A stretch of 64,000 nucleotides of DNA from Gammaproteobacteria bacterium. GTDB lineage: Bacteria; Pseudomonadota; Gammaproteobacteria; Pseudomonadales; JAUIET01. Location of the stretch: contig JAUIHW010000013.1 of assembly GCA_030431775.1 (NCBI GenBank), positions 1 through 64,000 of the forward strand, read 5' to 3'. Within the stretch, counting starts at the first letter, position 1. Every line of letters starts with the position of its first letter. Below are positions 43,719-45,395 of the stretch, in pieces. Under the pieces are notes generated by a model that saw nothing but the letters and a program-made list of their open reading frames with translations, searched no databases and had not been told where the DNA came from. The position numbers were made by a program, and so were the translations under genes.

Positions 43719-44906
43719 ATGGCCAAGTCCACCAGCCCCAGCCCCGATGAACTGCTTGCCAAAGCCCGGGGGCTGCAGCCGCGATTTGCCGAGCGCTGCG
43801 CGGAAACCCGTGAGTTACGGCGGGTTCCGGAGGCCTCCATGGCGGAGCTTCAAGAGGCCGGATTCTTTCGCATAATGCAGCCCAAACGCTATGGCGGCTT
43901 CGAGATGAATCCCAAGCATTTTTACGATGTAGTCTTTGAAGTGGCGCGAGCCTGCCCCTCCACTGGCTGGGTTTTAAGCGTTGTAGGCGTGCATAACTGG
44001 CAACTCGGGCTGCTGGACGTTCAGGCTCAGGATGATGTCTGGGCTGACGACTCTTCGATTCTGATCTCTTCCTCGTACGCTCCCAAGGGCACCGCCAAAC
44101 CCGTAGATGGCGGCTACCAGTTCAGTGGACAATGGCAGTTTTCCTCGGGGTGTGACCATGCCGACTGGGTATTTGTAGGAGGTGCAATGCCGGAGGACCC
44201 CAACTTTCCCGGCGTGCCACAAATTGCTTCTTTTTTGATTCCGAAACAGGACTACGAGATCATCGATGACTGGCACACCAGTGGCCTGCAGGGTTCTGGC
44301 AGTAAATCGATTAAAGTCAATGAGGTATTTGTGCCTGCTCATCGGGTTCATACCTTCATGCAGGGCTTCACAGGGGACAATCCGGGCGCCAAGGTCAATA
44401 CCTCACCGATCTTCAAGCTACCTTTTGGTCAGGTGTTCATTCGCGCCGTATCCACCCCTTGCGTGGGCACCGCTCAGGGCGCACTGGATGCCTACTGCGA
44501 GTACAACGCAGAGCGGCGCAACAGCGTCGGCATGAAAGTCGTCGACAACCCGGCCAGCCAGCTCGCCGCGGCCAATGCGTTGGCAGCCATCAGAACCGCG
44601 CGGCTGAAAATGCACCACGCATTTGACACGCTGTTAGGGAATGTAGAACGCGGCGAGCCTTTCGCTGATCGTGACCGGGTGGAGTTTCGTCATGATTCCA
44701 CCAACTCTGTGGAAAGCCTGATACCGGTGGTGCAGGAACTATTAGCCAATTCAGGCGGCAGTGCCATCTATTTGGGCAACCGGGTCAATGAGCTGTACCA
44801 GGACATGCTGGCATTTCGTCAGCACGCGGCAAACCAGGGCTTTGGGCCGGCAGTGAATCTGGGAGCCGTGATGTTTGGAGCACCATTGCAGGATGTGTTC
44901 TGCTAG
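43719..44906 (+). CDS. Flavin-dependent monooxygenase, acyl-CoA dehydrogenase fold (HsaA-like)
   Basis: A 395-residue protein of the group D flavin monooxygenases (HsaA, HpaH, DszC-like). RVPEASMAELQEAGFFRIMQ opens the helical domain; AKPVDGGYQFSGQWQFSSGC and DWHTSGLQGSGSKSIKV are the beta-domain segments seen in HsaA, and the usual acyl-CoA dehydrogenase catalytic Glu is not evident. HsaA hydroxylates a steroid-derived phenol using reduced flavin from a partner reductase, absent here. The second ATG (43719) is spaced correctly from AAGGAG. The TAG stop at 44904-44906 is formed with the first bases of a palindromic element; without it the frame would read on. Confidence 0.87.
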   Translation: MAKSTSPSPDELLAKARGLQPRFAERCAETRELRRVPEASMAELQEAGFFRIMQPKRYGGFEMNPKHFYDVVFEVARACPSTGWVLSVVGVHNWQLGLLDVQAQDDVWADDSSILISSSYAPKGTAKPVDGGYQFSGQWQFSSGCDHADWVFVGGAMPEDPNFPGVPQIASFLIPKQDYEIIDDWHTSGLQGSGSKSIKVNEVFVPAHRVHTFMQGFTGDNPGAKVNTSPIFKLPFGQVFIRAVSTPCVGTAQGALDAYCEYNAERRNSVGMKVVDNPASQLAAANALAAIRTARLKMHHAFDTLLGNVERGEPFADRDRVEFRHDSTNSVESLIPVVQELLANSGGSAIYLGNRVNELYQDMLAFRQHAANQGFGPAVNLGAVMFGAPLQDVFC

Positions 44907-44958
44907 CATCGGCTTCTATTCGAGTGTAATTTTTGCTGCCAGGCTTTTTCGGTACTTC
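44904..44958 (+). repeat. Left outer arm of the palindromic element
   Basis: This 55-base arm pairs with 45341-45395; five mismatches (positions 12, 14, 22, 27 and 48 of the arm) and no gaps. It starts TAGCATCGGC and contains GCTGCCAGGCTTTTTC. Similarity to the right half continues, with small gaps, through the spacer up to the hairpin. Confidence 0.88.
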
Positions 44959-44974
44959 TGGATTGTGCCACTTA

Positions 44975-45120
44975 TGGGCTTCCACTCGCGGGGTTTTTGC
45001 TGCGTGACTTGCCCCCTCCGGGGTTCCCTCTATCAAAAAAATGCCTTTCGCTGAAAGTCATTTTTTCTCCTTCGGTCTGCGTCTCTTACCTTCGCAAAAG
45101 CCCCCGCGAGTGGAAGCCCA
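44975..45120 (-). repeat. Left hairpin module of the palindromic element
   Basis: Arms 44975-45000 and 45094-45120 pair over about 26 bases with one mismatch and one bulge. They enclose a 93-base core that, read on the minus strand, is about 78 percent identical over its alignable parts to the core of the right module. Within the core, AAAAAATG/CATTTTTT with CTTTC-GCT-GAAAG forms a further small hairpin (45034-45066). Confidence 0.85.
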
Positions 45121-45167
45121 GTCAGGGGACACGCCACAGGATCTACCAAATAGATGTGTCTCTCACA

Positions 45168-45323
45168 CTAAGGCTTGCGGCCAATAATGGCTTTCACGGA
45201 GGTAAAAGACGCCGGCCGAGAGAGCCAAAATGACTAGCCGCAGGCGACGGCATGTTGGTGAGTGAGGGTACCGCGGAGCGGCCAAGTCGCGCAGTGAAAG
45301 CCATTATTGGCCGCGAGCCTGAG
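45168..45323 (+). repeat. Right hairpin module of the palindromic element
   Basis: Arms 45168-45197 and 45294-45323 pair over 30 bases with two mismatches, enclosing a 96-base core. The core shares GGTAA-x-AGACGC, AAAATGACT and CAAGTC-x-CGCA with the left core, in the opposite orientation. The arm sequence itself (GCGGCCAATAATGGCTTTCAC) shows little resemblance to the left module's arms. Confidence 0.85.
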
Positions 45324-45340
45324 CTATCGGCACTCTCCTG

Positions 45341-45395
45341 GAAGTACAGAAAAAGCCTGGCAGCAAAAGTTACCCTCGAATGGCAGCCGATGCTA
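45341..45395 (-). repeat. Right outer arm of the palindromic element
   Basis: Inverted partner of 44904-44958, ending CCGATGCTA. Pairing stops exactly at the terminal TA; the flanking bases on the two sides (GTTCTGC left, TGGACACC right) are unrelated. Confidence 0.88.

Follow-up and report, generated by a model that had tools for sequence, protein, structure and literature searches.

Organization of the element in the window

Between two convergent genes in the window (the whole stretch of DNA that was analysed, 64,000 nucleotides) lies a 492-bp element (44904-45395), the parts of which are collected in Table 1. A first-pass annotation had described it as one quasi-palindromic unit with 55-bp outer arms, a long hairpin in each half and a palindromic centre. 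The repeat finder recovered the arms (44904-44958 against 45341-45395) with the annotated 50 of 55 positions complementary (91%), together with both hairpins, and reported no separate palindromic centre. The two halves also repeat each other imperfectly in inverted orientation (45056-45102 and 45189-45235, 79%, repeat finder), and in BLAST the full 492 bp of the element matched the reverse strand of the same element at 67%. Four ORFs of at least 60 aa overlap it, all of 68-83 aa, in agreement with the annotated lack of a credible gene.

Both strands fold far below shuffled sequences in energy: -280.7 kcal/mol for the plus strand (z -17.4) and -263.5 kcal/mol for the minus strand (z -13.2), with 0 of 100 dinucleotide shuffles equally stable in either case. 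In the minimum-energy fold of the whole plus strand, the two halves pair to give a long rod rather than the T-shaped structure that had been proposed. In the alignment of copies, the structure that is kept is each half's own hairpin, not the fold of the whole element.

The interval is a composite of two related hairpin modules of about 150 nt, with their 5' ends facing, plus flanking remnants of further modules. The annotated pair of inverted hairpins stands as such, but the modules as natural units span 44972-45123 and 45168-45323, and the remainder of the 492 bp consists of what appear to be decayed neighbours. The outer arms look like decayed 3' halves of additional modules, the left one probably so. 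For the right arm, an alignment with a score of 40 covers the 3' end of a module copy in another locus (L006) and its flank; the left arm is weakly similar to other module 3' ends, over a 13-base stretch alone (score 26), and has a direct repeat at 44930/44994 (17 nt, 82%, repeat finder).

Table 1. Coordinates of the element and of its flanking genes in the window
Feature	Position	Strand	Evidence
Flanking gene ending at the element, 397 aa	43713-44906	+	ORF list; acyl-CoA-dehydrogenase-like by eye
Left outer arm, a probable decayed 3' half of a module	44904-44958	-	Complementarity to right arm; weak 3'-end similarity; direct repeat
Module A, full length	44972-45123	-	Covariance model R1, 149.6 bits, E 5.3e-37
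3' arm of module A	44975-44998	-	Pairs with 45097-45120
Conserved core of module A, two inner hairpins	44999-45096	-	19-module alignment and consensus fold
5' arm of module A	45097-45120	-	Pairs with 44975-44998, 24 nt, 92% (repeat finder)
Centre between facing 5' ends, 44 nt	45124-45167	none	Gap between R1 matches
Module B, full length	45168-45323	+	Covariance model R1, 161.8 bits, E 2.7e-40
5' arm of module B	45168-45197	+	Pairs with 45294-45323, 30 nt, 93% (repeat finder)
Conserved core of module B, two inner hairpins	45198-45293	+	19-module alignment and consensus fold
3' arm of module B	45294-45323	+	Pairs with 45168-45197
Right outer arm, resembling a decayed module 3' half	45341-45395	+	Alignment with L006 copy, score 40
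Flanking convergent gene, 344 aa	45428-46462	-	ORF list; NAD-dependent epimerase-like by eye

Anatomy of the module

Across the family, the module is a unit of about 150 nt in which complementary arms surround a conserved core of about 100 nt with two inner hairpins. The consensus fold of 19 modules from the window's genome and a congener comprises 45 pairs, 31 of which changed on both sides. Inward from the arms comes a conserved strand, which in much of the window's genus reads GCGAAGGTAAAAGACGCAGGCCGAAGGAG; it is followed by an inner hairpin, by GAGGGAACC, by a small hairpin and, on the way back to the 3' arm, by CAAGTCACGCAGC. The inner hairpin carries A and T runs in the window's genus, and this A/T-run hairpin is swapped for other sequence in Dasania. 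The loop of the small hairpin is mostly GGA, a rough GGA-loop pattern fitting 103 of 120 distinct modules; GNA-type loops are unusually stable in DNA. A Dasania subtype (L089:6845-7015, L098:4293-4463, L112:3208-3378 and similar modules) has other sequence with TTTTTAGATAAAG or the like in place of the small GGA-loop hairpin.

The median arm is 25 bp long by local arm alignment of the 120 distinct modules, a set that leaves out identical modules, L006:1382, L038 (at the site of L146) and loci that carry no genome label, and in which some arm alignments are very short (4-9 bp). They differ between subfamilies and have little in common across genomes beyond a few inner bases, yet they are nearly complementary: those of the L119 module pair at 33 of 33 positions, and in 8 of the 120 modules the arms are perfect over at least 20 bp. 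The arms form 51 clusters, which is an overcount, as some clusters are related. The modules of L026 and L059 are atypical in that their paired arms are short.

For the sequences beyond the arms, 101 modules, represented by 67, were kept after removal of those that lie close to a locus end or whose arm score is weak. The commonest tetranucleotides in the 15 nt upstream of the 5' arms of these representatives were CGAT (19) and GATG (16), a possible end motif in counts uncorrected for composition. In the window's own genome, a 15-base motif from the 3' end of the module was counted 15 times at one mismatch or fewer, and its reversed control 0 times; 3' halves appear to be common, because 6 or 7 of the 15 occurrences fall outside the listed full modules. 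Outside the full modules, on the right flank of L003 and the left flanks of L004 and L005, 5'-truncated modules (3' halves with a period of about 64 nt) stand in tandem and in the same direction, and look as if copying began from the module 3' end.

Copies and distribution

The annotation had called for BLASTN against the same and related genomes. The 4.67-Mb genome of the window gave 20 matches to the element on six contigs, both strands counted; in a sample of 56 genomes, 8 matches were found in a single congener and none in the other 54. Strong full modules under the covariance model R1 number 15 in the window's genome, where the weakest of 16 matches (29.6 bits, overlapping a strong one) was left out, and 6 in the congener. 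The interval is neither unique nor unconserved, and its arms are recovered by a repeat finder; the proposal of a new MITE-like family holds as regards a repeat family of many copies, but not as regards its likeness to MITEs, since the ends are not constant and no autonomous partner was found among the loci examined.

The family is scattered among the genes of certain marine bacteria and extends beyond the genus. With R1, modules were detected in at least 10 of 293 sampled genomes of the order, the window's own included, which was the sole carrier detected among 369 genomes sampled from the class. Among 390 sampled genomes of the order, the model R2, built from 88 matches, detected modules in at least 15, spread over 9 of 142 genera; among 274 of the class it did so in at least 2, the window's own and one other. 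All of these counts are lower bounds, because stricter filters were used and few candidates were scored per genome. A pattern scan of named genomes returned 16 stretches, 15 of which were confirmed by the covariance model; the confirmed carriers are Pseudomaricurvus alkylphenolicus, Dasania sp. GY-MA-18, the marine gammaproteobacterium HTCC2143 and one gammaproteobacterial MAG. Pseudomaricurvus and Dasania are placed in Cellvibrionales in the NCBI taxonomy. The remaining stretch (L094), from a Myxococcales MAG, had no model support and was set aside as a chance match.

Outside these genomes, the viral contigs gave 0 exact pattern matches, and E. coli (20,395 records), phage and plasmid sequences gave no match at E 0.01. 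No Rfam 15 family reached its gathering score in the window or in 17 further loci; with relaxed E-values, just three weak and implausible models (a miRNA, a snoRNA and a spliceosomal RNA; E 0.5-6.6) touched the window element, and none appeared in four other loci at E up to 1. A literature search, of incomplete coverage with most subscription journals outside it, returned no title or abstract describing the module family. In several drafts, modules were observed at or near contig ends (L032, positions 1-159; L037; G717:C34:43-195; G717:C37:1-142), so these repeats probably break assemblies and their copies are undercounted.

Covariation and strand bias

In alignment A3, 42 of the 45 pairs changed on both sides and 89.9% of pair cells held standard pairs, as against 35-45% when the partner was slid by 1-3 columns; the many copies with covarying stems that the annotation had proposed to look for are present. 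Because A3 had been fitted to the model, the arms were tested separately by plain local alignment. Among the arm positions of the 120 distinct modules there were 2586 Watson-Crick pairs, 227 sense-strand G.U, 21 A.C and 141 other combinations. An earlier pass over 86 modules (the 88 hits minus L006:1382, which is weak and overlapping, and L090:7889, which is cut at the locus end) had given 183 G.U against 14 A.C. When each position was counted once per arm cluster, the numbers were 101 and 18; 33 clusters had more G.U, 2 had more A.C and 16 were tied (sign test 4e-8, a value that is too small, as some clusters are related and not fully independent).

By these data, one strand of each module is kept foldable, as RNA or as single-stranded DNA. 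Palindrome repair or a double-stranded site should prefer neither strand. Selection on a folded single strand is the best account of the bias; mutation biased along the sense strand could be an alternative source of the G.U excess. The covariation is of the one-strand kind seen in structured RNAs, and folded single-stranded DNA would give the same signal.

Arrangement and genomic location

Neighbouring modules mostly have their 5' ends facing. Among 59 neighbouring pairs (L006:1382 and L038 left out), 39 are arranged 5'-to-5', 17 are 3'-to-3' and 3 have the same direction. The linkers of the 5'-to-5' pairs are 42-55 nt in 25 of 39 cases (range 10-200), and those of the 3'-to-3' pairs are 58-87 nt. 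Loci with exactly two modules have the 5'-to-5' arrangement in 15 of 18 cases, and alternating arrays reach six modules in Dasania and four in HTCC2143.

The modules are found predominantly between convergent genes, as in 36 of 53 module sites, with 13 sites between tandem and 4 between divergent genes. By comparison, 5 of 80 background gaps of at least 100 bp in the same loci are convergent (Fisher p 2e-14). The 53 sites are best matches rather than a random draw, with genes called by a simple ORF rule; they include five orthologous Dasania pairs and leave out L120 (the same site as L148) and contig-end loci such as L090, L032 and L037. Where single modules stand between same-direction genes, inspection of five cases found 3 opposite to the genes and 2 along them. 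Single modules also adjoin genes that resemble by eye rpsA/ihfB, zapA with 5-formyltetrahydrofolate cyclo-ligase, and grpE (L036/L108, L033 and L037, respectively). These single copies had suggested a conserved RNA locus, an idea that was rejected as the contexts differ.

Protein comparison identified three sites common to two Dasania species, and at two further Dasania sites a search for an empty site found both occupied in the other species. The number of modules at these two further sites was four against one in one case and six against three in the other. Among the sites compared, Dasania arrays stay at orthologous places while their module number changes. Protein comparison within a first subset of the loci revealed no recurring neighbour gene across genomes beyond these orthologous sites; the cross-genome hits above 35% identity came from the shared Dasania sites and from ORFs called in module DNA, apart from a few hits of 35-51%. 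On contig 82 of the window's genome (L109:4842-6365), two unlike modules placed 5'-to-5' and 1.2 kb apart flank a 365-aa gene. This gene was considered as a lost transposase and dismissed, being hydrolase-like by eye.

Possible mode of spread and function

The reading that we favour, which falls just short of being probable, is that the element is a single member of a dispersed family of non-coding repeats, which act like oversized REP/BIME repeats and are copied in trans as folded single-stranded DNA. A hairpin-recognising nuclease acting in trans would copy and spread the module as a folded single DNA strand, in analogy to the copying of folded single-stranded DNA that has been proposed for REP repeats and RAYT transposases. 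A REP-like life is favoured because the arrangement, the location and the G.T tolerance of the modules match the REP traits given in the available part of one report (PMC3733652). Support comes from the dispersal of the modules, their covariation and G.U bias, the pair geometry, the convergent sites, and the stable Dasania sites with changing module number. Convergent gene ends may be the places where an insertion harms least, and hairpins located there may, as a secondary effect, shield the two transcripts or keep them apart. RAYT itself was not supported as the copying enzyme: Y1_Tnp genes exist, but the 17 loci around 14 Y1_Tnp matches contained 0 modules. Y1_Tnp went undetected in 3 of 10 carrier genomes searched, which are 83-96% complete. 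No insertion event was caught among the loci compared.

Against copying as single-stranded DNA, the tolerance of G.U fits RNA equally well. The main rival, possible but rather doubtful, is that the transcribed sense strand works folded, as a small RNA or as a 3'-end element controlling stability, processing or readthrough, and is spread by recombination or another enzyme. Strand-specific covariation with G.U wobbles, the conserved core and the position of modules at gene 3' ends are consistent with such an RNA, and the available text of the REP paper takes G-T pairs to hint at transcription or RNA (PMC3733652). In addition, a promoter-like site in the centre of a Dasania pair (L092, minus strand 6400-6373) aims into the neighbouring module in the sense direction; however, the promoter-like sites of L092 number 2 against 0.9 expected, which is near chance, and the window element has none, its centre at 45124-45167 included. 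The lack of an Rfam family and of a fixed orientation for single modules between same-direction genes also argues against an RNA, as does the 5'-facing pair, in which transcription running on from either flanking gene first reaches a module in antisense. The suggestion that each pair is a MITE or DNA transposon relic, namely both ends of a larger element that has lost its interior, accords with the inverted geometry, the dispersed copies and the gene-flanking modules of L109, but is improbable given that module ends are not constant, that the L109 gene is hydrolase-like, that no neighbour gene recurs save at orthologous sites and that the core fold is conserved, unlike that of a relic.

Two explanations that take the modules as sites or signals fare worse still. 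Convergent sites gather positive supercoils, and long near-perfect arms, including the eight perfect ones, might serve a double-stranded site or cruciform (e.g., for gyrase or a nucleoid protein) with the palindrome kept by template-switch repair; this is very improbable, as neither a double-stranded palindrome nor repair would be expected to give the strong one-strand excess of G.U over A.C. A bidirectional transcription terminator is the least probable of all. The convergent location and the A and T runs of the inner hairpin in the window's genus would suit it, whereas that hairpin is replaced in Dasania, a separate terminator-like hairpin is found next to the Dasania array L092, and terminator-like sites in the window element number 2 against 0.9 in shuffles.

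The modules might represent a new class of genomic hairpin, in which a sequence-conserved core of about 100 nt functions as a folded single strand, the complementary arms change freely and outward-reading pairs lie between convergent genes, spread by a novel hairpin-copying enzyme or acting as a novel RNA class; we offer this tentatively, as a possibility. Many bacterial genomes contain REP-like repeats, the role of which is still debated. The present family is unusually informative, with its long core, clear strand bias, fixed pair geometry and no linked RAYT, and some of its carriers are cultured. Finding what copies or reads the modules would either widen the REP mechanism to include a new enzyme or uncover a new class of RNA.

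Comparison with known repeats

ERIC and Correia elements are of similar size, intergenic and strongly folding, but the modules do not have constant terminal repeats. Copies of ERIC and BIME occur in E. coli, and the 20,395 E. coli records searched contain no module match, an indirect test that takes the presence of ERIC in them as given; as far as tested, the annotated lack of a match to ERIC and REP/BIME elements was borne out, and no Rfam family matched either. The modules share a covarying one-strand fold with Rfam 15 families, although none reaches its gathering score. They differ from MITEs in the variability of their ends (51 arm clusters among 120 modules, an overcount), and no empty site was found among the loci examined. 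The TIR repeats of TIRYT transposases are described, in the available part of the report, as longer, sometimes self-complementary, and present as dimers or clusters flanking a tyrosine transposase gene (PMC3733652). Compared by that description, the modules resemble them in length, self-complementarity, dimers and clusters, but no tyrosine transposase gene flanked by modules was found in the loci around Y1_Tnp matches.

For REP repeats, the same partial source lists dimers with spacers of 20-100 bp, clusters, convergent or unidirectional location, and G-T pairs (PMC3733652). Like the GTAG- and CGTC-tagged REP, REPIN and BIME repeats, as far as that source describes them, the modules are dispersed, intergenic and palindromic, and form inverted dimers and alternating clusters, often between convergent genes. 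Inverted dimers and alternating clusters are evident in the pair counts (39, 17 and 3), and the convergent or same-direction location in 36 plus 13 of the 53 sites. In contrast, a REP unit has 20-40 bp and a short stem, whereas the module has about 150 nt and two further inner hairpins, which makes REP/BIME about four times smaller. Neither tag is conserved: in the 67 representatives, GTAG occurs 5 times and CGTC 0 times in the 15 nt upstream, and GTAG 0 times and CGTC 3 times downstream. No link of the modules to RAYT (Y1) genes was found in the loci compared, and they occur in tens where REP repeats occur in hundreds of copies, where counted. On the traits compared, and with size, tag and RAYT features setting the modules apart, the nearest known kind is the REP/BIME repeats.
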